Source of the DNA: a virus
Direction: 5' to 3' (one strand)
DNA: 31,991 bases
Virus record (IMG/VR): IMGVR_UViG_3300021963_005880
Location: 1 to 31,991 of that record
The notes under the pieces were generated by a model, which was not told where the DNA came from, ran no database searches, and saw only the letters and a list, made by a program, of their open reading frames with translations. How positions within the stretch are numbered: the first letter of the stretch is position 1; the number at the start of each line of letters is the position of its first letter. A program made the position numbers and the translations under genes. Shown piece by piece: positions 1,517 to 22,128 of the stretch.

Positions 1517-3145
1517 TTAGATAGAAGCCAAATCTTTAACATAAATCTTGCCATAAAATTCTGGGCGCACCATCTTCTTAGCGTAACGAGTCATAACACC
1601 ACGTCTTGGCGTGAAGTTAGATGGGTCGTACACTAATGGAGTCATAATCAATGGTACATATGGAGCATAAACCGCACCAGTCTCAAGGAAGTTACTTCCT
1701 TTGAATCCTAATAAGATTTCGTTAGAAGTCATATAAGGGTTCTTGTAAACTGTGTAACGAGATGCCAAAGAACCTACTTGAGATACACCAGCTGCGAAAG
1801 ATGTAGCATCTTTATCCGCGTTAACTGAGAAACCAGGAATTGATTCTAAGATAGTACAAACATCTGGAGATGCAACGATGAAGTTAGCACCACCACGAAG
1901 AGTTAATTGGTGAATCTTGTTAGAAACTTTGTTCAATTTAACACCTAATGTTTGGAACCATGTATTTTTTTGGTAAGCTAATGAATTGTTACCAGCAGAC
2001 CAAGTACCGTTTGCAGAGTTAAACTCTTCACCGATTGTTGCTGACCAATATTCAGTTGTTAACGCGTTAGACTTTAACATATCTAAGATTTCTAAATCAA
2101 TCTCTAAAGAGATGTATTCAGATAACATAGAAGTTAATTCAGCTTCAGCATCGATTGAATGGTATGCATTCAAATCTTGTGCCAATTCTGGTGTCCACAC
2201 TGCTTTCAACTTACGAGTCTTAGCAACAATTGCCTCAGAACGTAATTCTAAGTCAACTTCTGGAATACCTAAATCAGTTGCTGGTTCAGTTGGGTTACCA
2301 TCTTCGAAATCACCACGAGTTGTAGAAGTTGGAGCCAATGAATATTTAACTGTTACATTGTTTGCAGTTGCACCAGCAGCAGTACCGCTATAGTTAGCAT
2401 AGAATACTACGTTTGAACCTGATACTTTAGTATTTGCAGGGTAGAATGCATCTAATGCAGAAAAACCTGAAGATGAGATATGGAATGAACGTGCTGCGTC
2501 AAAATCTGCTGCAGTTGAAACGTTTGATTTTGCAATAGTTACTCTTTTCAAAGTACCTGCTGCTACTGATGATGATAAAGCTGAATCATATCCAACTTCT
2601 TGCCAGTTTGCTGAAGCAGTTACAGCATTAGCTGCTACTACTGAAATTGATTGGTCATTAATTGTGTAAGAATATCTTCCGTCACCATAAAGACCATTTA
2701 CAGCTGTTTTAGTTCTACCAAAATCAGAATCAAATGTTGAAGTACCTGCTCCACCAAATAATGATTGACCATTAAATTTAGTAGCACCTGCTACTGCAGT
2801 ACCATATTTGAAATCTAGATAGAATATAAGACCTGAAGGTAAGTTCATTGGTTGAACTGAAACGAATTCTTTCGCTGCAATTTCACCAAAGATTCTTCTT
2901 ACTAATGGTAAAGCTACGCCAGACCATTCTTCAGAACCTGCTGAAGTACCAGTTGCGGTAGCTTCATCCAATAATTGTTTCGCTTGGTTCTCTAATAGAA
3001 CTGCGATTTGAGATTGCTCTCTTTCTTTTAAACCTTCTAAAAGACCAGTTGCTTCCCATTTGCTTTTCAATTGACGTGTTTCAGCCAACATTACCGCTTG
3101 TGGGTTTCTGCCTTCCATAAGTTTAGATAAATTAAAATTTGCCAT
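1517..3145 (-). CDS. 23: Major capsid protein, T4 gp23-like
   Basis: This 542-residue protein (T4 gp23 is 521) forms the hexamers of the phage head. The conserved gp23 core is clear: LPLVRRIFGEI near residue 80, VQPMNLPSGLIFYLDFKYG near 97-115, TRKLKAVWTPELAQDLNAYH with IDAEAELTSMLSEYISLEID near 310-350, and a C-terminal MVRPEFYGKIYVKDL. A Ser/Thr/Ala-rich stretch at about residues 150-285 looks like a surface insertion domain. In T4 the prohead protease removes 65 N-terminal residues after a hydrophobic-x-Glu site. Here L59-D60-E61 followed by Ala is the equivalent candidate. The start is fixed by a strong Shine-Dalgarno, AAAGGAGA. The gene follows the scaffold by 32 bases and ends at an intrinsic terminator. 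Confidence 0.96.
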   Translation of the reverse strand: MANFNLSKLMEGRNPQAVMLAETRQLKSKWEATGLLEGLKEREQSQIAVLLENQAKQLLDEATATGTSAGSEEWSGVALPLVRRIFGEIAAKEFVSVQPMNLPSGLIFYLDFKYGTAVAGATKFNGQSLFGGAGTSTFDSDFGRTKTAVNGLYGDGRYSYTINDQSISVVAANAVTASANWQEVGYDSALSSSVAAGTLKRVTIAKSNVSTAADFDAARSFHISSSGFSALDAFYPANTKVSGSNVVFYANYSGTAAGATANNVTVKYSLAPTSTTRGDFEDGNPTEPATDLGIPEVDLELRSEAIVAKTRKLKAVWTPELAQDLNAYHSIDAEAELTSMLSEYISLEIDLEILDMLKSNALTTEYWSATIGEEFNSANGTWSAGNNSLAYQKNTWFQTLGVKLNKVSNKIHQLTLRGGANFIVASPDVCTILESIPGFSVNADKDATSFAAGVSQVGSLASRYTVYKNPYMTSNEILLGFKGSNFLETGAVYAPYVPLIMTPLVYDPSNFTPRRGVMTRYAKKMVRPEFYGKIYVKDLASI

Positions 3146-3154: not shown

Positions 3155-3162
3155 TCTCCTTT
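3155..3162 (-). promoter_or_regulatory. Strong Shine-Dalgarno of the major capsid gene
   Basis: The coding strand reads AAAGGAGA nine bases before the ATG at 3145, the longest anti-Shine-Dalgarno match in the window. It contrasts with the SD-free, A-rich leaders of most non-head genes here. Confidence 0.8.
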
Positions 3163-3177: not shown

Positions 3178-4293
3178 TTATTTAATATTTGCTAATTTCT
3201 TGAAACGTTCTGCCATAGAATTGCTTTCTGCTATAATTGTTTTTGGAGCAGTTGAAGCAACTTTTTTCGATGCGAATGATTCATTCATTTTAGTTTGTTG
3301 TTTTACCTTCTTAGCAGTTCCACCAATTTTCATTGATTCAGCTAATGTAGAGAAAACTAATTTTACTTCTCTAACGTTTTGAGTTCTATCTAAAGTTTCA
3401 ACAACTTTGTGTTTTTGCTCATTAGTTAAATCGTAAGAACGGAATAATTTGTTAGTATACAATAATTTTGCATTTAACAAGTTTACTTCGTTGATTGTAG
3501 ATTTCAAAGATTTGATAACTTTGTATGCTTCTTCTAAATCAGCTTGTAATTCAGCTTTTTCTTCATCAGCACCTTCTTCCATCTTCTCTTCTTCACCTTC
3601 CATTTTTTCGTCATCACCATATCCCATTTCACGTAAGATTTCGTCTAAATCGATTTCCTCGTTATCTTCTTCGGATACTGGTTCTGCTTTTTCGTCACCT
3701 TCTGCAAAAGCTTCTGGTTTTTCTTCCTCTTCAACATACTCAGGTTTTTCAGTTTCGAATTTTACTTCGCCTTTTTCATCACCTTCTTCTGTCATTGGGT
3801 CGTTTTTACCATCTAACTCTTGTTCTAGTTCTCTGATAATTTCTTCTAAATCGAAATCATCTTCATCCATAGGTTCTGCTTTTTCTTCTTCAGCGATTGC
3901 GCCAGTTGGGTCGTCGTTAACACCATCACCATTTTCATCTTCATCAGATTCTGCGATTGTGTTGTTTTCGTCTTCTTTACCTGGTGTTGCTGTTTCTTTG
4001 TCAGTATCACCTAATTCTGTGTGTGCGTCAGTTGAGATACCCTGTGGGTCTTTGTTCTCAACATCGCTAAATTTTGTGCTGTCTGCATCCGATGTGTCAT
4101 CTGCACCATACTCTTCAGTTACATCTGCTGTCTCTTCTTCTTCTTCCATTTCAGCGGTAAGTTTCTTAGATAAGATAGATTGTAATCTTGGAGTAAAAGC
4201 TTCCTCTAATGCGATTTTAGCATTAGCGATTGCAGTTTCACGTACGGCTTTAGCATCAGCAATTGCATCTTTCAACAATTTTGAATTTGCCAT
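3178..4293 (-). CDS. 22: Prohead core scaffold protein, T4 gp22-like
   Basis: This 371-residue protein is the internal scaffold around which the head shell assembles. In T4 it is later degraded by the gp21 protease. The N-terminus (ADAKAVRETAIANAKIALEE then AFTPRLQSILSKKL) and the C-terminal helical part (LNAKLLYTNKLFRSYDLTNE then QKHKVVETLDRTQNVREVKL) match gp22-type core proteins of T4-like phages. The middle, about residues 48-245, is extremely Glu/Asp-rich and low in complexity. This makes the protein longer than T4 gp22 (269) and explains the long Ser-rich antisense frame opposite it. Position directly before gp23 agrees. A good Shine-Dalgarno (AAAGGAAG, 4301-4308) sets the start. Confidence 0.93.
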   Translation of the reverse strand: MANSKLLKDAIADAKAVRETAIANAKIALEEAFTPRLQSILSKKLTAEMEEEEETADVTEEYGADDTSDADSTKFSDVENKDPQGISTDAHTELGDTDKETATPGKEDENNTIAESDEDENGDGVNDDPTGAIAEEEKAEPMDEDDFDLEEIIRELEQELDGKNDPMTEEGDEKGEVKFETEKPEYVEEEEKPEAFAEGDEKAEPVSEEDNEEIDLDEILREMGYGDDEKMEGEEEKMEEGADEEKAELQADLEEAYKVIKSLKSTINEVNLLNAKLLYTNKLFRSYDLTNEQKHKVVETLDRTQNVREVKLVFSTLAESMKIGGTAKKVKQQTKMNESFASKKVASTAPKTIIAESNSMAERFKKLANIK

Positions 4294-4408
4294 TTGTTTT
4301 CTTCCTTTACTTTTTTTTCTGAAAATATTGAGTGATTTTCAATCGAATTGATTAAGTTAGTTGTTCGGTGACCTCACATAAGGGTGGGTATTCATTAACC
4401 AACGGGAT

Positions 4409-4434
4409 AAAATTAAACCTACATTAAGTAGGTT
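4409..4434 (-). terminator. Possible weak terminator or leader hairpin before gp22
   Basis: A perfect 7-bp inverted repeat (AACCTAC / GTAGGTT, 4416-4422 and 4428-4434) with a 5-base loop is followed on the minus strand by TAATTTTAT. It lies in the roughly 200-base gap between bS21 and the scaffold gene. The T tract is broken, so it may be a partial terminator or an mRNA-stabilising hairpin. Confidence 0.4.
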
Positions 4435-4491: not shown

Positions 4492-4794
4492 TTAATCTCT
4501 TGAGGTGTCTTTATCTGATTGAGGTGTTTTTTTACTAACTTTCTTTTTCTTTTTAGTAAAAAACCTAATCGTTCTATCACCATCTGCAATCTTACTGAGA
4601 GCAACTCTTTTTTGCTCTTCTCTGATTGCCTTTTGTTTTTGTAATCGTCTTTTTGTAGTAGGTTTAACGTATTCCTTTCTTTCTCTTAGTTCTAAGAGGT
4701 GTCCAGATTCCATAACCTTTTTTTTGAATTTCTTTAAAGCCTTTGCAATGTCTCCATTACGAACTTCGACTGTAACTCTTGATAATCCGCTCAT
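4492..4794 (-). CDS. rpsU: Ribosomal protein bS21, phage-encoded
   Basis: This 100-residue protein has residues 6-65 that match bacterial 30S subunit protein bS21. They read VTVEVRNGDIAKALKKFKKK, then a G-x-L-x-E-L-R-x-R-x-x-Y-x-KPTT pattern (KPTT at 44-47), then a basic helix. Ordinary bS21 is about 60-70 residues. Here a roughly 30-residue tail of Lys, Ser, Asp and Thr is added (residues 71-100). In host bS21 the protein sits near the 3' end of 16S rRNA and helps mRNA binding. Virus-encoded bS21 is known from other phages. KPTT resembles the proteobacterial form, and where Bacteroidota versions have Tyr in the helix (from memory, a KAAY/RAVY pattern), this one has Arg58. The gene has no Shine-Dalgarno of its own and lies among head genes, so late expression is likely. 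Confidence 0.93.
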   Translation of the reverse strand: MSGLSRVTVEVRNGDIAKALKKFKKKVMESGHLLELRERKEYVKPTTKRRLQKQKAIREEQKRVALSKIADGDRTIRFFTKKKKKVSKKTPQSDKDTSRD

Positions 4795-4851: not shown

Positions 4852-5925
4852 TTATTTGCTTAAAAGGAACAATGCTTCTTCAGCTTCTTGTTGATTTTTA
4901 ATCTTTGGGTCTTTATACATATCTACTTTATATCCTCTTAACGCATTTGATAAGAATATCATATACTTAGGATGTCCTAATTTTTCTTCTAACGTAGAAA
5001 GTGAATCATAGAACGATTGCTCGTTTCCTTTGTTCATTTTTTCTGCTGCTTTGAATTCTTCTTTATGTTTGTCAATATATGATGCAGTTGAATCTTTATA
5101 TCCATGTGCTGCTTCCTTTACTTTACCACATTCAACACAATTAGTTTTAGATTCTTCCAATGGCCATTGTGTTAACCACTTCAACCAATCTTTAGTATTC
5201 CAATCGTTTCTTTCTCTTGCCCCTACTTTGTAGTATTTTGTAAATACATCTCTTAATTCCGCTTTGTTATTAGCAAAACCGGGTATCTTAGATGCCACAT
5301 TTATAAATTCATTTGCACTAGCGTAATGTTCCATTGAGTTAGATAACATATCTACTAATGCCAACATTGCTTTATCATTACCTATCGCTTCGTTTACTGA
5401 TTCATTCTTTGGAACACAATTAGGAACTTGAGCACCACCTTTACCTGGTTTCATTCCTATCATCTCATATCCTTTCCAACATGGGTCTTTCTCCCCACCT
5501 TGTAATTTACCATCTTCTCTCAATCCCAAACGTTCTTTCATTTGCTCTTCAGTAATTTCACCAATTTTATAGTAACGAGATAGGATATGACCCATATCTT
5601 CGTATAATCCATGTAATCTTTGGTCTAAGTTCTTTGCTTCTATTGCAACTTGGTCAAATGATTTACCTAATTTGGTTAATTCATTCATATTACGTTTAAC
5701 AGTATGTGCATCAAACCAATCATCTGCTTCGTTTACCGCCAATTCTCTAGCTGCATCGGTAATACCACCCAAAGTTTCTGCTATCTCAGTAATGTCTGAT
5801 TTTCTATCCATCATTTCTTGATACTTGTTGTATGTAGAAACGATTTCTAAGAAATGTTTTTTTACTTCGTTGGAAAATCTTTTTGGTTCTTCACCTTCTT
5901 TAACTATCTTTGATAAACGTATCAT
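4852..5925 (-). CDS. Head-region modular protein with DPCWKGY motif
   Basis: This 357-residue protein is of unknown function. The N-terminus MIRLSKIVKE/GEE ends in a hydrophobic-x-Glu pattern like a T4 capsid-targeting leader. A helical domain follows (about 20-135). Next is a short module with DPCWKGYEMIGMKPGKGG and VPNCVPK (147-173), a cassette I recall from head-region proteins of marine T4-like phages. The linker NESVNEA (174-180) then separates a second helical domain, which has a C-x2-C pair at 263/266. The ESVNE linker recurs in neighbouring proteins and is a candidate gp21 cleavage site. The start is supported by AGGAGAT nine bases upstream, formed from the TAG stop of the previous gene. 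It is likely a prohead core or internal protein. Confidence 0.7.
   Translation of the reverse strand: MIRLSKIVKEGEEPKRFSNEVKKHFLEIVSTYNKYQEMMDRKSDITEIAETLGGITDAARELAVNEADDWFDAHTVKRNMNELTKLGKSFDQVAIEAKNLDQRLHGLYEDMGHILSRYYKIGEITEEQMKERLGLREDGKLQGGEKDPCWKGYEMIGMKPGKGGAQVPNCVPKNESVNEAIGNDKAMLALVDMLSNSMEHYASANEFINVASKIPGFANNKAELRDVFTKYYKVGARERNDWNTKDWLKWLTQWPLEESKTNCVECGKVKEAAHGYKDSTASYIDKHKEEFKAAEKMNKGNEQSFYDSLSTLEEKLGHPKYMIFLSNALRGYKVDMYKDPKIKNQQEAEEALFLLSK
5389..5403 (-). repeat. Dispersed linker repeat encoding ESVNE (357-aa protein)
   Basis: Coding sequence GAATCAGTAAACGAA is identical to 9102-9116 in a different gene, and one variant step from 10100-10114 and 10385-10399. It encodes the junction E-S-V-N-E between two modules of the 357-aa protein. 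Confidence 0.6.
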
Positions 5926-5935
5926 TTATTATCTC

Positions 5936-7432
5936 CTATTTTACTAATTTTGCTAATTTTATAGATTCATTCTTCATATATGGTTTATTATCAAATACTG
6001 ATTGAATTAAATCTGCTTCTTTATGAAATCCATTCATTCTCAATGTAAATGCTATACCATCTGCTGCATCGACTCCGTCCCATCCTGATGCTTGTGATAC
6101 ATCCGTACCATAATCATCAATCTCACCAGTTCCGTTCATATAAACCGAACCATCTGCAGAATTCTTACGAATATCATCCATTTTCTCTTTATACTTAGGG
6201 TCTTTGATTGATGGATATTCAGGTTTCTTTGCGAATTCAGGTTTTCCTTCAATTGCTGCTACTAATTCTCTTGCTTCACTATGAAAATTTGAATCAGTTA
6301 GTGCAGAAACTGCTGCTTGAAACATTGCTTCTTTATATTTTTCATTACCCAATTTTTGTGGAGTAATTCCTGATTTCTCAGCTAATTTCTTAGCATCTTT
6401 ATTTACTGATGGATTACCTGGTCTTTTCTTTTTAGGTTCTGATGTTGGTGTATCCGCTTTAGGCCCTTCTTGATTAGCATCTGCCTTTTTAGCAGCAACT
6501 CCTTGGTCTTCAGCAAATTTATTACACATAGGAATTGCATCTTTGATATCCATATCAATTACAATTACTTTCATATTTGCAGGTTTACCTGATGCAATTG
6601 CTGCTGATGTTACTGCTGCCCATCTATGATGACCATCAATTACATATCCATCTCTACTTACATAAATTGGTGCCGTAATACCAGGATGATTTGGGTCTTT
6701 TTCTAAAGCTTTGGACATTCCTGCTACTTTTGAACCCACTAATTCTGATTGTGTAGCTTTTAATCTATCTGATGGTATTTCGGTTTCTACTGTTTTTATT
6801 TTACCGTCCTTTAACATTTGCTGAAACATTGGTTCAGTGTCCACTTCACCCTTTGCATCTTTAGGTAATTTGTCGGCAGGTGAACCGGGAGTTGGTTTTC
6901 CTTTAAATTGTGGCATTTCTTCACGAGGAATACCAGCGTTACCAGCACAATATAAGTTTGTTCCAGCTACAGTTATTTTACATAAATTATAGTTAGGAGC
7001 TTCTTCACCTTTAGCCTTTGCATCACTAGCTATTTTATCTAACTCATCAATTTTCATAGAAATTTCTCTCTTATCACTATCTGATATTTTATTTATATCG
7101 GATGGTGCATTAAAAGTTTTTTTATCTGCCTTAGGCATTATATCTTTAATCTTAGTAGATTGTATTTTTGGGGTATCAAATTCTGTTGATGATTTATCAC
7201 CACTTTTATCTGATTTAGCAGATGTATTTTTTGCTGGTTTGTCAAAAATATTTACTGTTGGAGTTTTTGTATCAGGTTTATCTGATTTTTTGTCTTCTGG
7301 ATTAGTATGTGTTCCAGCTTTAATTGCATCAGCTTTACTGGCTTTTGACCTAAATATTGATGTTTTACCTGTCTTTTTATTTACAGCGGTAAAAGTTTCT
7401 GCTTCAATAAGTAAATTTTTTAATTTAATCAT
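5936..7432 (-). CDS. ParB/sulfiredoxin-fold domain protein, head region
   Basis: This 498-residue modular protein opens with MIKLKNLLIE/A, the clearest capsid-targeting-like leader in the window (compare the T4 internal-protein leader, which also ends hydrophobic-x-Glu before Ala). Next comes AVNKKTGKTSIFRSKASKAD and a Lys/Ser/Thr/Asp-rich linker. A ParB/Srx-like domain follows at about 215-300, with the signature VIDGHHRWAAV (DGHHR 266-270). This fold binds nucleotides or acts as nuclease or kinase in relatives, but the activity here is unknown. A Lys/Pro-rich linker and a C-terminal helical module (about 340-485) end in NESIKLAKLVK. The gene stops with TAG, 10 bases before the next ATG. A TAGGAA about 12 bases before the ATG is a modest Shine-Dalgarno. 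Confidence 0.72.
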   Translation of the reverse strand: MIKLKNLLIEAETFTAVNKKTGKTSIFRSKASKADAIKAGTHTNPEDKKSDKPDTKTPTVNIFDKPAKNTSAKSDKSGDKSSTEFDTPKIQSTKIKDIMPKADKKTFNAPSDINKISDSDKREISMKIDELDKIASDAKAKGEEAPNYNLCKITVAGTNLYCAGNAGIPREEMPQFKGKPTPGSPADKLPKDAKGEVDTEPMFQQMLKDGKIKTVETEIPSDRLKATQSELVGSKVAGMSKALEKDPNHPGITAPIYVSRDGYVIDGHHRWAAVTSAAIASGKPANMKVIVIDMDIKDAIPMCNKFAEDQGVAAKKADANQEGPKADTPTSEPKKKRPGNPSVNKDAKKLAEKSGITPQKLGNEKYKEAMFQAAVSALTDSNFHSEARELVAAIEGKPEFAKKPEYPSIKDPKYKEKMDDIRKNSADGSVYMNGTGEIDDYGTDVSQASGWDGVDAADGIAFTLRMNGFHKEADLIQSVFDNKPYMKNESIKLAKLVK

Positions 7433-7451
7433 TAGTTGATGTTCCTATATT

Positions 7452-7892
7452 TTAAAATCCTATTGAGACCGTTTTATTATCAAATTCTATCCAACGTATT
7501 TTGAACGAAATTAATAATTTTAAATCACTAACATCCATTCTCCAATTTTTTTCTGCCATTTCAATATCAGCGATATTACCATGTATACCATCCCAAATTG
7601 TAATAACTTTACCATTAAAGAATTTTAAGAATTGTTGTACTTGTTTTTGTTTAGCAGAATCTAATTCACTAACTTTAATTTCTGATGCTTCTTTAATTAC
7701 CCTTTTACTTTCAGTTAATACAGTTTTATGTGTATATAGGTCTAATTTACCATCAGCTTTAATCTTAACCTCATAGTTAGTCTTACGAATATCGTTATGA
7801 CCACCCTTAAAAGGTGTATCACCAACTTCTTTCTTAATACTACCCATTTCTATTTTGTTATCTCTTAGATAATCTTGTATTGAAAATGCCAT
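7452..7892 (-). CDS. Hypothetical head-region protein, 146 aa
   Basis: This is a 146-residue protein I do not recognise. The N-terminal part (about 1-58) is polar and beta-like. A linker with LTESKRVIKE/AS (59-70) resembles the hydrophobic-x-Glu junctions of neighbouring proteins. The C-terminal part (about 75-146) contains LDSAKQKQVQQFLKFFNGKV then ITIWDGIHGNIADIEM and ends in alternating hydrophobic strands. It lies 10 bases after gp21 and 19 bases before the ParB-domain gene. AAAGGAT at seven bases before the ATG is a good Shine-Dalgarno. A prohead core or decoration role is possible from context alone. Confidence 0.6.
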   Translation of the reverse strand: MAFSIQDYLRDNKIEMGSIKKEVGDTPFKGGHNDIRKTNYEVKIKADGKLDLYTHKTVLTESKRVIKEASEIKVSELDSAKQKQVQQFLKFFNGKVITIWDGIHGNIADIEMAEKNWRMDVSDLKLLISFKIRWIEFDNKTVSIGF

Positions 7893-7902
7893 ATTTTATC
7901 CT

Positions 7903-8502
7903 TTATGCTAATTCAGTAATGATTTCTCTCATAAAGTCTTGTGCCTTACAATACTCACCACAAACTATAGCTTGTTCTTTTAATTGTCGATTTACTGATT
8001 CGTTCATCGTAACCGGTGTCATAAATGCACCATGTGTAGATGGGTTAGAAACAAAATCCCAACCAATCAGTTCAAAATCATCACCCACTTTTACTTTACC
8101 TTCGCCAATATTAACTACCGAACCCATACCACGAGAAGAGATACCCAATAGGATACCTGCTCTTAATAATTCTTTTAAGATGTTACCTGATGGAGTTGGT
8201 AAAATTTCTACTGTCCCACAAAGGTCATCGCCTTCCCAATGAATTTCTTTGACATTATGAGAAACGTTCTTTAAGTTGATAATACCAGAATCTGGATGGT
8301 CTAATTCCCCTAATGCACGTCTTTCTTTAATAAGAACTTCGTATTTCTTTGCTTCACGCATTAGAATATCTTTAGGGTATATACGACCATTTTGGTTTTC
8401 TGCAACCGCTCTTTGAAGAATTCCCTTAACTAAGGTTCTACCACTTGAATCTTCATTCAATTTTCCTTCAAATAATGTCGTTTCTATTAATAAATTTTTC
8501 AT
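7903..8502 (-). CDS. 21: Prohead maturation protease, T4 gp21-like
   Basis: This 199-residue serine protease cleaves scaffold, capsid and internal proteins during head maturation (T4 gp21, 212 residues, herpes-protease-like fold). The candidate catalytic residues are His69 in ALGELDHP and Ser122 or Ser123 in GISSRGMG. WDFVSNPS (Asp149) follows in the usual place. I chose ATG at 8502 over an in-frame GTG at 8514. The ATG overlaps the TAA of the upstream 58-aa ORF (TAATG), and GGGGAG sits five bases before it. The N-terminus (LLIE, LFE, LNE) and a C-terminal NESVNRQLKE carry hydrophobic-x-Glu sites, consistent with self-processing. Confidence 0.92.
   Translation of the reverse strand: MKNLLIETTLFEGKLNEDSSGRTLVKGILQRAVAENQNGRIYPKDILMREAKKYEVLIKERRALGELDHPDSGIINLKNVSHNVKEIHWEGDDLCGTVEILPTPSGNILKELLRAGILLGISSRGMGSVVNIGEGKVKVGDDFELIGWDFVSNPSTHGAFMTPVTMNESVNRQLKEQAIVCGEYCKAQDFMREIITELA
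7990..8004 (-). repeat. Dispersed linker repeat near gp21 C-terminus
   Basis: Coding sequence AACGAATCAGTAAAT encodes N-E-S-V-N near the gp21 C-terminus. It shares GAATCAGTAAA with the linkers at 5389 and 9102, but the final Glu codon has become CGA (Arg). Confidence 0.5.
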
Positions 8503-8678
8503 TATGCTCCCCACGTTTTTCTCTTTTTAAAGAGGTCAAAAAATATTGCAGATACTTCTCTACGAATGATATCACGAATAAGTTTTTCATCCTCATTTGT
8601 GATTTCTTCTTTGACGATACCCCATTTTACTTTGGTTATCTCTTCGTTAATAATATCTAACAATCGTTTTTTTGTCAT
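8502..8678 (-). CDS. Small basic helical protein, 58 aa, before gp21
   Basis: A short frame of 58 residues, MTKKRLLDIINEEITKVKWG to a Trp-Gly-Ala end, fills the gap between the 238-aa gene and gp21. It predicts as amphipathic helices with Lys/Arg and Glu. Its TAA shares a base with the gp21 ATG (TAATG), so the two are probably translationally coupled. T4 has small head proteins gp67 and gp68 in the same place between gp20 and gp21. The position is equivalent, but I see no convincing sequence match. No Shine-Dalgarno is visible before its ATG. Confidence 0.65.
   Translation of the reverse strand: MTKKRLLDIINEEITKVKWGIVKEEITNEDEKLIRDIIRREVSAIFFDLFKKRKTWGA
8507..8512 (-). promoter_or_regulatory. 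Shine-Dalgarno deciding the gp21 start
   Basis: GGGGAG lies five bases before ATG 8502, inside the end of the 58-aa ORF. It falls downstream of the alternative GTG at 8514, so it supports the ATG as the true start. Confidence 0.6.
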
Positions 8679-8687: not shown

Positions 8688-9404
8688 TTAGTTTAATAAA
8701 CCAATTGCAATATCGCCTACTATTCTTTCCGAATCTGTAGCGTATTTCTTATTTATAATAGCAATGGTATTACCAGATACTTTAATCATATACATTGGCA
8801 TCATCGATGTTGTAAAATCATATTTAATACCTATTTTTTTCAATTCAGTACCAACACTCATAAAAGAAGATGCATTTTTAACAGCTGCTTCTATCTTATC
8901 TAAATCAGCATCGTATTTTCCTTCATTCACCGATTCCATTTTCAAATTTCTCTGTGCATTAGTTAAACCACTAACGATGGATTTGATAGCTTTTTTAGTT
9001 GCATCTTCATCTTTAGAAAGAACTCTTTTCTCTAATTCCTTAGTGTTCATTTTTAAAAATTTAACAAATACGTTATGAATAGTATCCCAATCTTTAACTT
9101 CTTCGTTTACTGATTCGTTTGCTTTTTTACCAGCTCTTAAATCTGCTAAATCATCACTACCGATATCACCATCTTTATCTAAATCTAATTTTTTTTGACC
9201 ACCAACTAATTCCTCATTCTTCTCACCCTTACCATTCCATGCTGAATCTATTTTATCAAAGAATGCTTTCTTTTCTTCTTCAGACATAGATGGAATTGAT
9301 TTTCCAGCCTTATCTAATGCTTTTTGAAAGAATGCTTGATATTCGCTTTCTTCCGTCATTACTCCTTTGATGATTTCTTTTAATCGTGTACGTGATATTT
9401 TCAT
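8688..9404 (-). CDS. Modular head-region protein with EF-hand-like loop
   Basis: This 238-residue protein is built from modules. The leader MKISRTRLKEIIKGVMTE/E resembles a capsid-targeting sequence. A helical module (about 20-66, YQAFFQKALDKAG then FFDKIDSAWNGKG) is a type I recall from marine T4-like head proteins. An EF-hand-like calcium loop DLDKDGDIGSDD occupies 74-85. The linker ESVNE (97-101) precedes a helical module (105-155), and a second ESVNE (157-161) precedes a small alpha/beta C-terminal domain. If gp21-type cleavage occurs after each final Glu, three pieces result. The start is backed by AGGAGAT. The gene begins right at the stop of the 399-aa gene. Confidence 0.7.
   Translation of the reverse strand: MKISRTRLKEIIKGVMTEESEYQAFFQKALDKAGKSIPSMSEEEKKAFFDKIDSAWNGKGEKNEELVGGQKKLDLDKDGDIGSDDLADLRAGKKANESVNEEVKDWDTIHNVFVKFLKMNTKELEKRVLSKDEDATKKAIKSIVSGLTNAQRNLKMESVNEGKYDADLDKIEAAVKNASSFMSVGTELKKIGIKYDFTTSMMPMYMIKVSGNTIAIINKKYATDSERIVGDIAIGLLN
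8926..8940 (-). repeat. Second ESVNE linker of the 238-aa protein
   Basis: The coding strand, continuing to 8922, gives Met-Glu-Ser-Val-Asn-Glu using GAA TCG GTG AAT GAA. It has the same amino acids as the linker at 9102-9116 but diverged codons. This suggests selection on the peptide and not only recent DNA copying. Confidence 0.45.
9102..9116 (-). repeat. First ESVNE linker of the 238-aa protein
   Basis: Coding GAATCAGTAAACGAA is base-for-base identical to 5389-5403 in the 357-aa gene. It lies between the EF-hand-like loop and the next helical module. Confidence 0.6.
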
Positions 9405-10603
9405 TATTTTTCTATCTCCTGTATTGTTTTCGCTATGTTGATTAATCGTTCCTTTATCTTATAAATATGTCCGTGCGTTCTTTTCCAAAATGTATCGGAA
9501 CTCAATTCATTCATAGTCTTAATTTGATTATACCAACGGAAAAAAGTTTCAACTTCTTTTAATTGATATTTTAATTCTCTCAAACCAGTTGCTAACTTCT
9601 TATTAGCATGCATTGATTCATCATTTTTCAATTCTAACCAACGATTTACTGGTCTTTTTGATTTGCCTTCTGATAAACTCTCATCCATATGTTCTAAACC
9701 ATATTTCATAATAGTTTTATCATCTAACATCTTACCATTAAGAGTAAACATACGTTTACCTTTGTAATAAACTGACCAATTACCTTGTGGGGTTGCATCG
9801 ACAGTAATATTCTTTAAATCCTTTATACTTCTATCATTAACTTGAATAGCATCTAAGAATTTTTCTGCTTTAGGGTCTAATGCTTCATTAACACCTTCTC
9901 TTTTATCTAATTCAAAATATATTTTATTCTTAACTTTTTGAAAAGCATCAATTGCAGCTTTTTGGTTACCCATAAATCCCATATTCAATCCAATCTCCCA
10001 TGAACGAACACCTTTCTTAGCTAATGCAAGAATTTGTGCTGCCACTGGTTTTGATACTATTTGTGTTGGGGTTTCTACGTGGATAAGATGTTTTAATGCT
10101 TCGTTTATGGATTCAAATTTAAGTTTATTAAGTTTTATATTAGTTGGGTTTCTTTGAAATAAATATCCATTTTGAAATTCAGCATGGTCTCCACCTTTAA
10201 AGAAAAACTCACCCTTACCATATGCTTTATCTAAACTATTTTGTATAAGATTTACTATTTTATTAGTTCCTATTTCTCTAATTTTAATACTTGCTGCTTT
10301 TTTATCTATAAAAGAAAAGAATATTCTTCCATTCATTTCACTTATATTAAAATCTATACCTAATATATTTACACGTTTAGTATCTTCGTTTATGGATTCA
10401 TCAATATTATTAATATCATTATTTACTAATGTATAACCGAATTGTGTTGCAGTTTTTTTTCTTTTTTTATCAGAATTTTTACCAGAAAAGGCATTAGGAG
10501 TATCATAACCATCGACATTACCTGTCACATTGGCTTCATCTAATTCATCTTCGATTTCTTTGATAAGTTCGTCTATAAAAGATTTAATATTTTTTTCTGA
10601 CAT
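9404..10603 (-). CDS. Modular head-region polyprotein with ESINE linkers
   Basis: This 399-residue protein appears to be a string of five or six short modules. The leader MSEKNIKSFIDELIKEIEDE reaches LDE/A at 23. Next is a VTGNVDGYDTPNAFSG and KKRKKTATQFGYTLV module, a cassette I recall from other T4-like marine phages. Then come ESINE (69-73), an alpha/beta module, ESINE (164-168), a helical module, EGVNE (236-240), a beta module (NWSVYYKGKRMFTLNGK), ESLSE (308-312) and a C-terminal helical bundle with RWYNQIKTMNELSSDTFWKR. Each linker ends in hydrophobic-x-Glu, the gp21-type cleavage pattern. It overlaps the upstream 289-aa gene by 20 bases. AAAGGAAA supports the start. It is probably a packaged internal or core protein, but this is not proven. 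Confidence 0.7.
   Translation of the reverse strand: MSEKNIKSFIDELIKEIEDELDEANVTGNVDGYDTPNAFSGKNSDKKRKKTATQFGYTLVNNDINNIDESINEDTKRVNILGIDFNISEMNGRIFFSFIDKKAASIKIREIGTNKIVNLIQNSLDKAYGKGEFFFKGGDHAEFQNGYLFQRNPTNIKLNKLKFESINEALKHLIHVETPTQIVSKPVAAQILALAKKGVRSWEIGLNMGFMGNQKAAIDAFQKVKNKIYFELDKREGVNEALDPKAEKFLDAIQVNDRSIKDLKNITVDATPQGNWSVYYKGKRMFTLNGKMLDDKTIMKYGLEHMDESLSEGKSKRPVNRWLELKNDESMHANKKLATGLRELKYQLKEVETFFRWYNQIKTMNELSSDTFWKRTHGHIYKIKERLINIAKTIQEIEK
9459..9469 (-). promoter_or_regulatory. CATATTTATAA box upstream of the 238-aa gene
   Basis: Coding-strand CATATTTATAA lies inside the 3' end of the 399-aa gene, about 55 bases before the ATG at 9404. That is the same distance as the box before the portal gene. 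It is a candidate internal late promoter. Confidence 0.4.
10100..10114 (-). repeat. ESINE linker repeat, copy A in the 399-aa gene
   Basis: Coding GAATCCATAAACGAA is identical to 10385-10399 in the same gene, and differs at two bases from the ESVNE linkers at 5389 and 9102. Confidence 0.6.
10385..10399 (-). repeat. ESINE linker repeat, copy B in the 399-aa gene
   Basis: Coding GAATCCATAAACGAA is an exact copy of 10100-10114. It encodes the first internal linker of the 399-aa protein. Confidence 0.6.
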
Positions 10604-11453
10604 TGGTTATTTCCTTTATTAATTCGTATGATATCATCAACGCTGAAACTTGTTCATCCGTAATTTTCTTTCCTATCTTTTGTGTTTTTAAAACATTGAT
10701 AGTTTCTTTTAATTTAATTTTTGTGATTTTATCGTTAATTTCGGAATGTAATTTGTGAAGTTCAGTTACTACTTTCTTTAATTGTGAATCATAGTATTCA
10801 CCGAATTTAGAGGTGTTATTAACATTATTAATAAATTCTCTTAAAAGACCTTTTTGGTCGTCGTTTAAGTTAGTGTATTTACTATTAAATGTTTCAACTA
10901 GTATTTTGTATGTCAACAATCTCAAATCCTTTTCTTGATTCTTATATGTTTCCATTAATTTATCTTCAATCTTCTTAATAGATGTTTGGGTTGTAGATAC
11001 GTGTTCTACTAATGTAATCTTAGCATCAAATACATCCTTAACATTAGTTACATCTTGTATCTTTGCTTCAAAAATCTTATGAACCGATGCCAATACTCTA
11101 TAATTAGAAACAGGCGAAGCAACAAATTCTTCAATATCAAAATTTTCTTTAATAGCCTTTACTAAGTTATACTTTTCTCTTAATAATTTAGTTTCATCTA
11201 ATTTAGTACGAGTTTCGATAATAGCATCAATAAATTTTTCTGCTTTACTTTCTGAATTATATTTTTCAGTCGTAAGTAAATTGAATAAACGCAATTCCTT
11301 TGCTAATTCGGTTTTACCACCAAAAAATTCTTGTACTATTTTTTTAGCCTTTTCTACTGGAGCATTATTTAAAATCTCCAACGTGATTTGACGAGTTAAG
11401 AGTTCGAATAAAAACCCAGTATTTTTAAATTTCGAATGTTTAATTTTTTTCAT
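10584..11453 (-). CDS. Conserved helical head-region protein after portal
   Basis: This 289-residue protein is almost entirely alpha-helical and highly charged (Lys, Glu, Asp, Asn), with no membrane or signal sequence. The opening KHSKFKNTGFLFELLTRQIT resembles a protein I recall next to the portal gene in marine T4-like phages. I know no established function. It sits directly after gp20, where T4 has gp67 and gp68 core proteins, so a prohead core or assembly role is plausible from position only. Unlike the genes that follow, it has no clear hydrophobic-x-Glu leader. AAGGAT at 11 bases before the ATG is a moderate Shine-Dalgarno. Confidence 0.65.
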   Translation of the reverse strand: MKKIKHSKFKNTGFLFELLTRQITLEILNNAPVEKAKKIVQEFFGGKTELAKELRLFNLLTTEKYNSESKAEKFIDAIIETRTKLDETKLLREKYNLVKAIKENFDIEEFVASPVSNYRVLASVHKIFEAKIQDVTNVKDVFDAKITLVEHVSTTQTSIKKIEDKLMETYKNQEKDLRLLTYKILVETFNSKYTNLNDDQKGLLREFINNVNNTSKFGEYYDSQLKKVVTELHKLHSEINDKITKIKLKETINVLKTQKIGKKITDEQVSALMISYELIKEITNVRKKY

Positions 11454-11493
11454 TGTTTTTAAATCCTTATTTTGATAGACTCAAATTTCTATA

Positions 11494-11520: not shown

Positions 11521-13251
11521 TTAATTTTCCGTATCATCGATAATATTAGTTTCATCTAACATATCTTTAGTTTCGTGTAAATATTTCTTTTTTGATGAAA
11601 TCCCATTGATGTAATTCATTGCTTTTGTTTCAGATGTTCTACTTCTCTTTGAAGTTCTCTCATCATCACCTAATGGGTCTCTTCCATAAGGATGCTTGTC
11701 TTTACCATAAGTATTACCTTCGCGAGGTCTACCACCTTTATCCTTCAATTCTGTTTTAAGATTTTCCAAACTTTCTTCAACATCAGTTGGTTTTGGAGGG
11801 TTTGCAGGGTCATTACCATCATTTTCTATTGAATTGTAACGGAATACATCCTTTAAATCCTCAACCACTTTACCTCTTTGTTCGGTTTGTTCCGTTTCTG
11901 ATAATTTAAATATATTTTCATATATCCAATCCTTAGATAACATCTTCAATGCAGCCATATCAGTTGCTAAACGGATTTTTTCACTCCATAGGTTTACTTT
12001 CTCTTGTTCGTAGATTGTAGATGGGTTAACTAATCCAATTTCAAAGTTAGTCATTTCAGAATCTTGTATACCATTACCATATAAGTGGATAACTGCTATT
12101 TTAGATAATTCTGAGGTAACTGTTCTTTGGATTCTTTCGATTGTTCTTGCAAAACGAACATCTTCTGCTGCTAGGGTTGCTTTACCATTTACATTTTCAT
12201 CATATCCCAAATATGCTTTAGGAATTTTTAATGCAGCAAATAATTTAGCTTTTAGGTAATCAATATCTTCAATTGAAGCATATTCTAAACCTGCAAGGTT
12301 ATCAATCGATGTACCACTATCACCACCTCTTACCGGTAGATAAAAATCTTCCGTAAGGTTTTGCATGTTGTACTTTAAATTATAATCACCACTTGTCTTA
12401 TCTAAGAATGGAACTTTTTTCATCTTATTGATAATTTTTTGCATGTAGTTATCAACTTCAGTTGGTGGAATATTACCAATATCAATTTTGAATACCCTTT
12501 TTTCAGGTGCTCTCATAATACGATGGATTAACATCGCATCTTCCATTAAAGATAATTGTTTCCACAACCTTCTGCCATTTTCAATCATTGATTTACCATA
12601 AGGTAACCAGTTGGTATCAGATAATAAACGGAAATGTGCCATTTCAAAGTTATCATACTCTACTTTACCAATCGGGTCTTCTTGCACTTTGAATTTAACA
12701 AGAGAAGCATTAGTTGGGTCAAACCCTTCTAATCTTTCGGTATTATATTGTGAGTGGGGAGTAACGTTTACTATACCTTTACCTTCAGCAATTTCAAGTC
12801 CTAAAAAGAAATCACCATATTTACACATATTACGAACCCACGGCCATAAAGTGAATTCAATATTAAGAATATCATAAAAAAGGTTTTCTAATAATTCTTG
12901 AACACGCGGATTGTCTGAACGTATTGTTATGATATCACCGAATTCGTTTTTAAGAGTAGATTCATCAGCGTAAATATCTAATGCAGATGCTATAATTGGG
13001 TCTTGGTCCATCGCATCAAAATCTCTAAATACTTCTCTACGAACTTGAGCGTATGCCATTGATTGTGCACCTCCCGCTTGTTCATAAAAAGATTTTTGTA
13101 TTTTTGAGTATCTATCTTTTAATGAAGATAGGTTTGTTTGTTGCCTTTCATCCGCATCAAAAACTTTTCGTTTTCCACTGGCATCGACAGTAACAATTGC
13201 CTTTGTTGAGAAAAGTTTTTTTAACCGATTGAAAAATGTAGTATCTGCCAT
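11521..13251 (-). CDS. 20: Portal vertex protein, T4 gp20-like
   Basis: This 576-residue protein (T4 gp20 is 524) forms the dodecameric portal through which DNA is packaged and the tail attached. T4-like portal features are clear. The N-terminal region includes KSFYEQAGGAQSMAYAQVRR, then DPIIASALDIYADEST and NEFGDIITIRSDNPRVQELL. The core includes PWVRNMCKYGDFFLGLEI, APEKRVFKIDIGNIPPTEVD, and KIPKAYLGYDENVNGKATLA with the SDVRFARTI-type helix (here AEDVRFARTIERIQ). The C-terminal tail, about residues 480-576, is polar and rich in Lys, Asp and Asn, and is probably flexible. The gene follows the terminase after 73 bases. It has a CATATTTATA box upstream but no Shine-Dalgarno. Confidence 0.95.
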   Translation of the reverse strand: MADTTFFNRLKKLFSTKAIVTVDASGKRKVFDADERQQTNLSSLKDRYSKIQKSFYEQAGGAQSMAYAQVRREVFRDFDAMDQDPIIASALDIYADESTLKNEFGDIITIRSDNPRVQELLENLFYDILNIEFTLWPWVRNMCKYGDFFLGLEIAEGKGIVNVTPHSQYNTERLEGFDPTNASLVKFKVQEDPIGKVEYDNFEMAHFRLLSDTNWLPYGKSMIENGRRLWKQLSLMEDAMLIHRIMRAPEKRVFKIDIGNIPPTEVDNYMQKIINKMKKVPFLDKTSGDYNLKYNMQNLTEDFYLPVRGGDSGTSIDNLAGLEYASIEDIDYLKAKLFAALKIPKAYLGYDENVNGKATLAAEDVRFARTIERIQRTVTSELSKIAVIHLYGNGIQDSEMTNFEIGLVNPSTIYEQEKVNLWSEKIRLATDMAALKMLSKDWIYENIFKLSETEQTEQRGKVVEDLKDVFRYNSIENDGNDPANPPKPTDVEESLENLKTELKDKGGRPREGNTYGKDKHPYGRDPLGDDERTSKRSRTSETKAMNYINGISSKKKYLHETKDMLDETNIIDDTEN

Positions 13252-13324: not shown

Positions 13325-14908
13325 TTATTTAATCAACCAAGTCAAATCTTCGTCTTGATTACCCACTTTCATTGACCACGGATTATCATCCATTGAACTA
13401 CCACCATAGAAGCCAGATTCTTGTACTTGTTGTTGAATTCCACCTAATGATTTGATAGTTAAATCAATTCCTTCTTGTCTTAATCTGAGTGCAGTATCTC
13501 TCACCCATAGAGCAATTGATAACGCCATCACTAAGTCATCGTTGTATCCTCTCATTGCTTCCGCACGATTATTGTTCCATATAAAGGTAAAAAGCTCCTC
13601 TATCAACCTATTAGAACGTATGGTGATAGATTTCTCTCTGAAATAATCATCCAACTTTGAAATAATTAGAGGTCTTGTTTTAGAGGTTGTTGAAAATCCT
13701 GCAACCATACCCCTTTCTTCTGCTCTAAACTTATTATGCATCTGATGTTCAACATCCACATACTTTAAATCCTTACTCATATAGAATAAATTTTTATATC
13801 CTCTATCAATTACCTGTTGGATAACTGCCCAACCAATATTTGCGTTCTCTATTACTAAAAGTGCTTCGTTATAATCGGTTGCTAAGGAAACTAAGAAATT
13901 TCCAAAATCTTTTGTATCTAATTTTCCTTTGTATTCTGCTACTTGTACCGAATTAACAATATCAATTACTTGTGCGGCGGAGTAATCCGTAGAATCTCCA
14001 CGTGCAACGTCCGCAACAACCATATATGATTTTTGATAATCGGGATATTCCCATTTCCAAAGATTTCCATCAAAGCCAGTTTTTTCTAATGGTTCTTGTA
14101 CAAAAGTTTCCCTATAAAACATTAGAAGTTGTGGGTCTATGACACTATCACCTGATGATACGAAATCACAATCACATTCCTGTGCTGCACCCTTTACTCC
14201 TAAAAGTCTTTGTTGTTCATCTCTCCAAATTTGGTCTCTTTCTGGATGTACCGTCCAATGTAAACGAATTGTATTGAATCCATTAGTTCCGTCTTCTGCA
14301 CTAACCCATGTTCTATGAAAAAAATTACCCACACCATTAGGAGTAGAAAGAATAATTGCGTTACCACCCGTTGATAGAGTAGATTGTGCAGATACCCAAA
14401 TATCTTCAATATTATCAATGAATGCTGCCTCATCAAATACTAAAAGAGATAGGGCTTCAGACCGACCAGCATCTGATGCTGCAGAAGTTGCTTTAACTTG
14501 CGAACCATTTGAGTATCTAAGGGATAATTTATTATCTTCGACTGTTGTTTGTTTTAACCAACTAGGTAAATATTGATTCATTACCCTTACTTTGGTTACT
14601 AAGTTTTTTGCAACCTCTTGTTTCGTTGCAATTACTAATACGTTAAAGTCCTGATTAAATAACATCTTCCATAACGCAAATCCTGCAGTTAAGGTTGATA
14701 TACCCGTCTGGCGGGATTTCAGAATGATGTTATATCGATTATCTTTGAATTGGGCTAGAGTATTTTCTTGAAATGGGTATAAATGAAAAGGTATCTTACC
14801 CCTAACAGGGTGTTGAATCATGCAATACTTCTTCATAAAGTATACGGGGTCACCTGCACACTTTTGGTATTCTAATTTTATTATATCTTTTAAAGAAGTT
14901 CCTGCCAT
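13325..14908 (-). CDS. 17: Large terminase subunit, T4 gp17-like
   Basis: This 527-residue DNA-packaging motor combines an ATPase and a nuclease (T4 gp17 is 610). The Walker A-like motif is KSRQTGIS (64-71) and Walker B is SLLVFDEAAF with Asp159 and Glu160. The coupling motif is ILSTPNG (186-192). In the C-terminal RNase H-like nuclease, acidic residues appear as VVADVARGDS (Asp300), LLVIENAN (Glu354) and GYNDDLVMAL (Asp457/Asp458). All expected catalytic residues look present. It starts 12 bases after the zinc-cluster gene, with no Shine-Dalgarno. It uses the motor with the portal encoded next. In T4, gp18 and gp19 (tail sheath and tube) lie between 17 and 20, and they are absent here. Confidence 0.96.
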   Translation of the reverse strand: MAGTSLKDIIKLEYQKCAGDPVYFMKKYCMIQHPVRGKIPFHLYPFQENTLAQFKDNRYNIILKSRQTGISTLTAGFALWKMLFNQDFNVLVIATKQEVAKNLVTKVRVMNQYLPSWLKQTTVEDNKLSLRYSNGSQVKATSAASDAGRSEALSLLVFDEAAFIDNIEDIWVSAQSTLSTGGNAIILSTPNGVGNFFHRTWVSAEDGTNGFNTIRLHWTVHPERDQIWRDEQQRLLGVKGAAQECDCDFVSSGDSVIDPQLLMFYRETFVQEPLEKTGFDGNLWKWEYPDYQKSYMVVADVARGDSTDYSAAQVIDIVNSVQVAEYKGKLDTKDFGNFLVSLATDYNEALLVIENANIGWAVIQQVIDRGYKNLFYMSKDLKYVDVEHQMHNKFRAEERGMVAGFSTTSKTRPLIISKLDDYFREKSITIRSNRLIEELFTFIWNNNRAEAMRGYNDDLVMALSIALWVRDTALRLRQEGIDLTIKSLGGIQQQVQESGFYGGSSMDDNPWSMKVGNQDEDLTWLIK

Positions 14909-20066: not shown

Positions 20067-20186
20067 TTAGTGATTTTTATAAACAAATGGGTCTCTTTTA
20101 CGGAGTTCTTCTAAACGTTTTTTATATTGTTTTTTTAATTTACGTTGTTTGAACCAATCTGTTATTTTTTTAATAAGCTTTTTCAT
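20067..20186 (-). CDS. Small basic protein, 39 aa, ending RDPFVYKNH
   Basis: A 39-residue frame, MKKLIKKITDWFKQRKLKKQ to LRKRDPFVYKNH, overlaps the end of the 470-aa glycosyltransferase-like gene by 17 bases. It is a single very basic amphipathic helix followed by RDPFVY. I recall tiny proteins with a C-terminal (K/R)RDPF(I/V)Y motif in other T4-like phages, which supports it as a real gene. Function is unknown. The helix could bind nucleic acid or membrane. No Shine-Dalgarno is present. Confidence 0.55.
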   Translation of the reverse strand: MKKLIKKITDWFKQRKLKKQYKKRLEELRKRDPFVYKNH

Positions 20187-21582
20187 TAATAGTTTTTTTT
20201 AAGTTAATTATAAATTCATTTTCGATTTCATCTTTATTATTTGCGTATTCAAACAATAAATTTCTATTATAAATAAGTATTTCAAAAATTGATTTATACC
20301 ACTCATTTAATTCTTCAAAAGACAGTGAATTTAATCTTATAATTTCAGCATATATAGATTCCATACGTTCTGCATCATCTTTTATATTATCATACTCTTC
20401 ATTTATAAATGGAGAAAATGTTTTAAATCCTAATTTTTTTAATTCAACAAGTGCACCCGGTTTGTTAACCATTATAAATGGTTGTAGATGACCAATCGGT
20501 TTCCATGTCTTTTCGGAAAGATATAATCCTGTTTCATAAAAATTAGTTTCTGATAAAATATGAATATATGAATTTAAATAAGGTTCTTTATTTTCAAAAT
20601 TAAATCCCCAAACTGATTCTATATCTTCATAATCAATTGTTTGTTTTTTTAGTTTAATTATATTTTGAAATTCTTTATATGCACTTAGTGCTAAATTACT
20701 AGTGTGTAAATGGTGTGAAAAAAATGAAAGATTATTTTCTCTTTCAAACATATTAATGTCAAATGAAACTAAATTTTCTTTTATAAAATCAATACCTAAT
20801 AACGAAAGTAATGTAATTCGTTGTGGTCTTAATCGTCTATTCATAAATAAAAATTTATGTTTTCTAATATTAGAAAAATCAATATCACTTTCTTTTACAA
20901 TAGTACTCGTATTATTAACGTGTTCCCAAAAATTATCCTTTACTCCATTAAAAATTTGTTGCATTTCTAATGATTTCATTCTTAATGACCATCCCCAATA
21001 AATTACTTTTATTTTATCAGTAATGTTATTTTCTAAACAAATCTTATTATGTAATTCTTCAATATCAACACTTGAAATTGTGAATATAACTTTATTAGCA
21101 GGGATTTCATATTTTTTAAATAATTCGTATAAATACACTATTAAATGCTCTTCAAATACACCTTCAGTTGAAAAATTAATATGTAAATAAAAATTGGGTG
21201 TATTTTTTATTTCCGTTAATGCATGAGTTGATATAAAATCTATAAAATTCCATTCTGAAAATTGAGTTTGTTTTCCTAAAAATTGTGAAAAACTTCCAAA
21301 TGGTTCTACTAAATATACAAAACTTTTATTACTTTTTATTCTAATATCATAATACTCATTAAAGGATAATTTAGTATATAAGTTTGTATTTAAATTTAAA
21401 TTTGCATTGTAAACGGGTGGTTGTAAATAATTTTTAAAAAAATGTTCGCTAACTGAACTATTTACTTCCCCACCTTCTTCAAAAAATTTGTAAGAATAAA
21501 AATAATTAAACGCGTTTGGAATCCAACCAGATGGTCCAAAGAAATCATAAACTGCGTGAAAATTATCAATCGTATTATGCAT
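20170..21582 (-). CDS. Glycosyltransferase-like protein, paralog 1 (470 aa)
   Basis: This 470-residue protein is one of three paralogs in the operon. The shared signature is an N-R-x-x-x-x-x-R segment (MNRRLRPQR 247-255), then SETNFYETGLYLSEKTWKPI (SEKTWKP 356-362), LQPFIMVNKPGAL, LGFKTFS (384-389) and a Glu-Tyr-Asp segment. The S/T-E-K block followed by a conserved hydrophobic-Pro strand resembles the nucleotide-sugar-binding part of GT10 (fucosyltransferase) and related enzymes, so transfer of a sugar to a surface glycan or virion protein is the best guess. The family match is by eye, so the sugar is unknown. It overlaps the E1-beta-like gene by eight bases and has no Shine-Dalgarno. The N-terminal 230 residues are specific to this copy. 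Confidence 0.6.
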   Translation of the reverse strand: MHNTIDNFHAVYDFFGPSGWIPNAFNYFYSYKFFEEGGEVNSSVSEHFFKNYLQPPVYNANLNLNTNLYTKLSFNEYYDIRIKSNKSFVYLVEPFGSFSQFLGKQTQFSEWNFIDFISTHALTEIKNTPNFYLHINFSTEGVFEEHLIVYLYELFKKYEIPANKVIFTISSVDIEELHNKICLENNITDKIKVIYWGWSLRMKSLEMQQIFNGVKDNFWEHVNNTSTIVKESDIDFSNIRKHKFLFMNRRLRPQRITLLSLLGIDFIKENLVSFDINMFERENNLSFFSHHLHTSNLALSAYKEFQNIIKLKKQTIDYEDIESVWGFNFENKEPYLNSYIHILSETNFYETGLYLSEKTWKPIGHLQPFIMVNKPGALVELKKLGFKTFSPFINEEYDNIKDDAERMESIYAEIIRLNSLSFEELNEWYKSIFEILIYNRNLLFEYANNKDEIENEFIINLKKTINEKAY

Positions 21583-22120: not shown

Positions 22121-22128
22121 TTTTTAAT

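Follow-up and report, generated by a model that had tools for sequence, protein, structure and literature searches.

Among the ribosomal proteins encoded by phages, bS21 is the one met most often and, to our knowledge, no benefit of a phage-borne copy has been demonstrated so far. In Flavobacterium-like hosts the anti-Shine-Dalgarno (ASD) of the 16S rRNA is kept out of reach by bS21 acting together with bS18 and bS6, and host genes are devoid of Shine-Dalgarno (SD) motifs.

In the work on Flavobacterium johnsoniae, Tyr54 of bS21 stacks on A1534; the Y54A replacement increases the expression of a strong-SD reporter by 70% in vivo and the synthesis of rpsU'-gfp 3-fold in vitro; removal of the C-terminal part of bS21 raises the translation of strong-SD messages; and bS21-free ribosomes initiate faster on the strong-SD rpsU mRNA (PMC9976891). 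The effects of Y54A are moderate in size. An exchange of bS21 during infection was also a matter of speculation there (McNutt et al. 2023, PMC9976891).

According to Chen et al. 2022 (PMC9723584), phages with predicted Bacteroidetes hosts have bS21 beside the genes of the large terminase subunit (TerL), portal, protease and capsid, bS21 is highly expressed with the structural genes late in replication, and 61 of 61 Bacteroidetes phage bS21 have an aromatic residue at position 54. It was proposed that the phage bS21 enters ribosomes late and selects phage messages (PMC9723584). How phage messages would be favoured was left open by these aromatic bS21. Two further reports are relevant: the bS21 of the Pelagibacter phage HTVC008M was incorporated into 70S ribosomes of E. 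coli (Mizuno et al. 2019, PMC6375957), and SD in huge phages were treated with regard to S1 (Al-Shayeb et al., PMC7162821). In the open-licence literature searched, no paper joining residue 54 of phage bS21 to SD use was found. Phage bS21 itself is thus already known, including from Bacteroidetes phages; the Arg-type clade described below departs from the published set.

Identification of the phage bS21

The window, i.e., the whole stretch of 31,991 bases that was analysed, is an uncultivated virus record. The product of the ORF at 4492..4794 (minus strand, ATG start, 100 aa) is firmly assigned to bS21 from its sequence, as in the first-pass annotation: its residues 8-59 match Pfam Ribosomal_S21 (PF01165; E 4e-15, 55.7 bits for a cut-off of 27), and matches are also obtained with PHROG 21469 (E 3.8e-10) and NCBIfam S21p (48.1 bits, cut-off 28.95). 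The KPTT segment pointed out in that annotation is present (K44-P-T-T47), and so is Arg58, which aligns with Tyr54 of the F. johnsoniae protein. With reference to Bacteroidota bS21 (KPSV..KAxY), the alignment is gapless from KP through Arg58, so that no reasonable alignment puts the Tyr back; the replacement of Tyr by Arg, initially only supposed, therefore stands.

The AlphaFold model, built on only seven aligned sequences (mean pLDDT 69, low confidence past about residue 70), predicts helices at 16-30, 32-38 and 48-70, Arg58 being within the last one. Members of the bS21 family are basic, helical proteins of the 30S platform; for the window protein the model gives three putative helices. Bacteroidia bS21 (those read) stop at about 63-66 aa and the window bS21 reaches 100 aa, which confirms the extra charged tail noticed in the first pass. 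The tail is variable, since the bS21 of Arg-type relatives have 70, 72, 87 or 100 aa, and it is predicted to be disordered; the tail was consequently ruled out as the key part of the protein.

No SD is found by motif scan of the window ahead of the bS21 ATG, unlike many host rpsU genes, which are preceded by a strong SD. An ASD-sequestering bS21 would be recognized by an aromatic residue 54 and a strong SD before its gene; the window bS21 has neither. Directly 3' of the bS21 stop codon lies a terminator-like hairpin that matches the consensus (4416..4434, minus strand). It is weak evidence, since 8 terminator-like hairpins are counted on 16 kb for 6.5 in shuffled sequences.

Gene content of the window

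The gene set of a T4-like myovirus is encountered in the window (PF07230, PF07068, PF03420 and PF03237). bS21 lies between gene 4852-5925 and a scaffold-like gene, in the same minus-strand block as terminase, portal, protease and capsid; all features given in this paragraph and the next are on that strand. The major capsid protein gp23 (1517..3145; PF07068, 1.2e-77) is preceded by the SD motif AGGAG (3156..3160). The acidic scaffold-like head gene (3178..4293), so called because it adjoins gp23, has no Pfam or PHROG match, and an SD-like AGGA is found ahead of it (4303..4306); its relatives are found in G001, G003-G006, G010 and G012 (viral contigs, see below) and in the cultured phages immuto (Flavobacterium) and Mel-JY01 (Microcystis). 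On the other side of bS21, the upstream neighbour is a head-module gene (4852..5925) that matches PHROG 36547, a function-unknown family (5.5e-9), with AGGAG at 5933..5937.

Further upstream, an SD-like AGGA precedes gene 5936-7432 (7443..7446) and gene 7452-7892 (7899..7902). The prohead protease (7903..8514; PF03420, 1.3e-26) has its likely true start at an internal ATG (MKNLLIE) with GGGGAG just before. AGGAG is found ahead of gene 8688-9404 (9416..9420), and AGGA ahead of genes 9404-10603 (10612..10615) and 10584-11453 (11464..11467). Portal gp20 (11521..13251; PF07230, 7.2e-69) and TerL (13325..14908; PF03237, 6.3e-13) are without SD.

The remainder of the window contains neither tRNA nor Rfam match, which is also true of the window as a whole. 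Next to the head module, positions 20170-31987 hold, as judged by eye, sugar-nucleotide epimerase-like, transketolase-like and other surface or glycan-type genes, none of those scanned having an SD by the motif rule. A 1462-aa ORF (15634-20022) with a nucleotidyltransferase-like start (PF01467) is matched in part by sequences of other clade members, of Mel-JY01 and of immuto. At 953-1333 a small protein without Pfam or NCBIfam match has a signal-peptide-like start ending in AFSQ, a style that we take to resemble that of Bacteroidota.

SD motifs of the virion genes

A phage bS21 that releases the ASD leads one to expect SD on the phage genes, even though those of the host are without. SD were scored as AGGA, GGAG or GAGG at −22 to −4 of genes called from ATG with a minimum of 90 aa; start positions and the smaller genes are approximate as a result. 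The term near denotes genes at most 9 kb from bS21. In the window, SD are found in 8 of the 14 head-block genes, or nine if the internal ATG of the protease is used, vs. 0 of the 17 others (p 0.0004); expressed by distance, the counts are 9/13 near bS21 and 0/16 elsewhere. The SD motifs predicted for a freed ASD are thus found, mainly round the head genes. The best explanation, with a probability of roughly 0.57, is that the Arg-type phage bS21 makes SD-reading ribosomes that favour the SD-bearing virion genes.

A scan of viral contigs yielded 52 loci encoding relatives of this bS21. Nine of them are full-length, on separate contigs, and 96-100% identical to the window bS21; further relatives at 84-86% identity are on contigs of up to 288 kb, e.g., G006 (288,673 bases) and G010 (287,455 bases). 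The head-gene neighbours of bS21 are common to G001, G003-G006 and G010. The 52 viral loci and these shared neighbours indicate that the bS21 gene is not there by chance. Arg occupies the place of Tyr54 throughout L002-L025, the bS21 of L018-L021 being read as Arg. The clade is one of T4-like phages (two members of about 288 kb), and its hosts are most likely Bacteroidia of the Flavobacterium-like kind. The nearest cultured capsid relatives are Mel-JY01 (52.9%), annotated as a Microcystis phage, and immuto (52.0%); this order, with a margin of one point, counts against a Bacteroidia host. G006 and G010 have 25 or 26 tRNA genes and one tmRNA each (L057-L058; L079-L080); the tmRNA tag of G006, as called, is unusually long.

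The contrast between near and far genes is also observed in the relatives: 15/19 vs. 42/268 in G006 (p 1e-8), 13/20 vs. 40/262 in G010 (p 3e-6), 11/12 vs. 13/66 in G005 and 11/18 vs. 12/52 in G003; for the partial contigs G001 and G004 it does not reach significance (p 0.12 and 0.73). On a whole-contig basis, SD genes make up 19-38% in the seven clade members vs. 8-10% for shuffled leaders. AGGA, AGGAG and AGGAGA come at the top of unbiased word lists established from 46 genes near bS21, and motif starts peak at about −11 to −14, which is a canonical spacing. The duplex energy to the ASD was dropped as proof of SD: a reversed ASD discriminates between the groups of genes just as well. Since this measure is non-specific, the case for SD rests on motif, spacing and conservation.

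Conservation was evaluated on G006 and G010 genes that are reciprocal best matches and whose starts agree, 151 pairs in all, with a median identity of 71% at the protein level. SD are present in both members of 25 pairs, in one member of 20 and in neither of 106 (p 6e-13), while the upstream regions of these orthologues are only about 50% identical. This both-or-neither pattern in diverged upstream DNA shows that SD are kept gene by gene. It bears on the idea that the phage bS21 poisons or slows host translation, or offsets bS21 turnover, the SD of late genes being a relic of an earlier host. E. coli ribosomes with the pelagiphage bS21 are indeed only about 5% active (PMC6375957), but a relic is hardly expected to persist across orthologues at 71% median protein identity while the nearby bases diverged, and this idea is considered highly improbable.

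The distribution of SD along the large genomes is not uniform. In G010, SD are found in 6 of 107 genes between 100 and 190 kb (4.9 expected) and in 9 of 26 genes of the tail-gene block at 190-230 kb (2.9 expected); in G006, the first 30 kb have 0/31 (1.1 expected). SD-less genes of both genomes have an A peak (about −11 to −13) close to the one of immuto. The SD-less blocks far from virion genes, presumably early genes, together with the SD-less bS21 gene, suggest a late translational switch.

Residue 54 and SD use in other phages

Immuto has SD in 4 of 160 genes (150 of its 160 kb), and its whole record contains no bS21 detected by the profile search that does find the bS21 of Mel-JY01. Phages with a Tyr or Phe bS21 have 4/102 (G017), 4/115 (G020), 9/94 (G018) and 12/146 (G019) SD genes, i.e., about the values of shuffled leaders; near bS21 the counts are 2/17, 0/16, 0/13 and 0/12, respectively. 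G018 and G019, which have a common bS21, have five-base motifs in 3/94 and 6/146 genes (about 1 and 2 expected), all of them away from bS21. Among the first 52 loci, 19 have Tyr or Phe and show 0/125 SD genes, many of these genes being near-copies.

These phages are informative about another possibility, in which the SD motifs take advantage of ribosomes that are naturally free of bS21 in the host, i.e., the route of rpsU autoregulation; the phage protein would then be an ordinary stand-in for host bS21, with an incidental Arg. The faster initiation of bS21-free F. johnsoniae ribosomes on strong-SD rpsU mRNA (PMC9976891) is in agreement with it. The hosts of aromatic-bS21 phages and of the bS21-less phage should hold the same pool of such ribosomes, yet these phages have no SD excess near their head genes, which makes such a use of the pool improbable.

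Three more scans brought the total to 161 loci and 73 distinct bS21. The 46 called aromatic (Tyr, His, Trp) are accompanied by 10/326 SD genes (13.5 expected) and the 21 called non-aromatic by 131/227 (35.3 expected); the latter include L026 (E by gapped local alignment, Tyr ungapped; 0/10 SD genes). Six have no residue at the site, including L052, which is Phe by eye. Many of the non-aromatic bS21 form one clade, and some of their phages probably infect other phyla. The non-aromatic set being largely one clade, the relation of residue to SD is an association and the counts are not independent. Moreover, distant Arg phages are weak in SD: 7/93 genes in G012 (about 3 expected; 2/15 near bS21), 4/37 in G011 (1.3 expected) and 3/31 in G465 (1.0 expected). 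From these lineages (G011/G012 and G465), Arg alone is not a predictor of heavy SD use.

L023 (Arg, 3/12) and L026 (Tyr, 0/10) were considered as a clean sister pair. This was not upheld on whole contigs, where the values of 3/31 (1.0 expected) vs. 1/17 (1.6 expected) are suggestive only. In a pass over 109 loci, 28 of them without readable residue, phage loci having a bS21 with Trp (L511, L512) show 0/19 SD genes and those with His (L451, L455) 0/14; the aromatic ring, and not Tyr itself, may therefore matter.

Host assignment

The host is assigned to Bacteroidia at roughly four in five, on the basis of outer-membrane protein affinities and, weakly, of GroEL rather than of an isolate or CRISPR spacer. 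The Bacteroidota host supposed at the outset appears borne out on these grounds. The capsid gene has no match among 395 Bacteroidota genomes (a search without positive control), and a first profile scan of genome contigs with the phage alignment gave no close bacterial bS21.

Host bS21 were read at 70 loci (L224-L293), the eight hard-to-read ones being seven Tyr and one Phe; rereading gave Tyr for G354 and G249 and Arg for G184. Bacteroidia bS21 have KPSV (or KKSV)..KAxY with rare variants. Those of Ignavibacteria, Chlorobi and allies mostly have Arg at the site (KAxR), one of the sister-class readings covering 15 of 19 rows. A host of such a sister class, with an Arg bS21 of its own, would provide another origin for the observations, since both Arg58 and the SD motifs would then mirror the host. 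SD use in host regions is compatible with it: ten Arg-type regions (127 genes) have 33% SD genes vs. 13% expected. Ten Tyr-type regions (127 genes) have 2.4% vs. 5.8% expected, in line with the SD-less hosts of the preferred reading. It must be added that the Arg-type regions are uneven (two without SD genes, others near expectation) and that nine of the ten were called Arg from the ungapped KAxR, gapped local alignment giving no residue.

G010 encodes an outer-membrane protein (CarboxypepD_reg plus beta-barrel) for which seven of 390 genomes have counterparts, with 59-63% identity along its length. All seven are of the Tyr54 type, and six have the Flavobacterium-type bS21 MLIIPIKDGENIDRALKRYKRKFDKTG. 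The next matches are G190 (55%), an Arg-type genome and thus a point for the sister-class host, then G213 (54%), G249 (51%) and G308 (50%), which are Tyr; the value for the Chloroherpetonaceae G030 is 44%. The family is wide, 170 of the 390 genomes matching at E 1e-110. Among phages, the protein is 89% identical in G003, a close relative of the window, and 72% in the Tyr-type phage G017; it is not found in G006. The nearest matches to Tyr54-type genomes and the presence of the protein in a Tyr54-type phage both argue against a sister-class host.

This receptor-like protein of 1089 aa (L074:9569-12835, G003:1898-5170, G017:42996-46268) is thus common to phages with Arg-type and Tyr-type bS21 and close to Flavobacterium-type genomes. 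A phage-borne host surface protein perhaps has a role in excluding rivals.

For GroEL of G010, the highest identity is 74% with Bacteroidia and 70% with Chloroherpetonaceae, whereas Ignavibacteria-class genomes (29 of 31 with a match) do not exceed 69%; this also disfavours a sister class. In trees it is placed with Cytophagia, and the long-branched GroEL of G006 with Flavobacteriia; a placement beside the Ignavibacteria/Chlorobi rows is not rejected by AU tests (p 0.134 and 0.182), which is compatible with a sister-class host. The tmRNA tag GxNNYALAA failed as a marker of Bacteroidetes proper: GEYNYALAA tags occur in Arg-type genomes too, as a sister-class host would have it. On the other hand, the blocks far from virion genes are SD-free and the capsid is 52% identical to that of a Flavobacterium phage. 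Adaptation to an Arg-type host is weakened by these results and appears unlikely.

It was observed besides that the host regions L324-L343 comprise Tyr-type genomes without SD use and, for several of the ten Arg-type ones, genomes with SD use. With this contrast, the part played by residue 54 could be tested across the phylum.

Proposed mechanism

The preferred reading, i.e., SD-reading ribosomes made by the Arg-type bS21, can be decomposed as follows: (i) the phage bS21 would be translated from its SD-less message by unmodified host ribosomes; (ii) it would enter the 30S, either replacing host bS21 or arriving before it; (iii) being of the Arg type, it would be unable to hold the 16S tail, giving SD-reading ribosomes; (iv) these ribosomes would favour head and other virion genes of the phage over SD-less host messages. 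Incorporation into 30S, exposure of the ASD and preferential late translation are inferred steps.

That the phage bS21 works as a switch has about even odds, and a late translational switch is the simplest account fitting all observations. In its extended form, SD-less early genes and bS21 would come first, the opened ASD would then hand over to SD-bearing virion genes, and residue 54 would co-evolve with SD use in phages and, phylum-wide, in hosts; the chances of this whole scheme fall a little short of even.

Here, the change of one side chain is found together with SD on virion genes, in a host that is likely SD-blind. This coincidence offers a possible direct mechanism for the preference given to phage messages. 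If true, the system would be a natural case of dedicated ribosomes, in which position 54 helps to decide whether the bacterium or the phage can use SD signals.

Comparison with known systems

HTVC008M resembles the window in that its bS21 is that of a myovirus, and differs by its alphaproteobacterial host. We know of no ASD-hiding bS21 to be replaced in that host. Mel-JY01 (PP395634) also has RpsU between prohead protease and capsid genes, and its capsid is 53% identical; unlike the window, its bS21 is far diverged and its SD use is even rather than concentrated near bS21 (9/22 near and 29/78 far, for 100 of 190 kb examined).

Ribosomes of F. johnsoniae lacking bS21 are comparable in their consequence: loss of the C-terminal part of bS21 or of Tyr54 lets strong SD be read. 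There, the origin is a host mutation or subpopulation and not a phage product, and the SD gene is rpsU itself. The bS21 of Ignavibacteria and Chlorobi share with the window the Arg in a KA-x-R frame (in most of those read); they are cellular genes, their N-terminal and KPSV segments differ, and many have a strong SD before rpsU.

The phages of Chen et al. are like the window in having bS21 within the head-gene neighbourhood. Clades a-e of that study combine bS21 on the opposite strand with an aromatic residue 54, whereas the window combines the same strand with Arg. bS21 is on the head-gene strand in the window, G006 and G010, and on the opposite strand in G017 and G020, which are taken as Chen-type from this layout and to which the window TerL is about 30% identical. 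The head genes of the window carry SD motifs, unlike those of Chen-type phages. With Arg58 against 61 aromatic residues out of 61, the clade of the window is an exception to the published picture.
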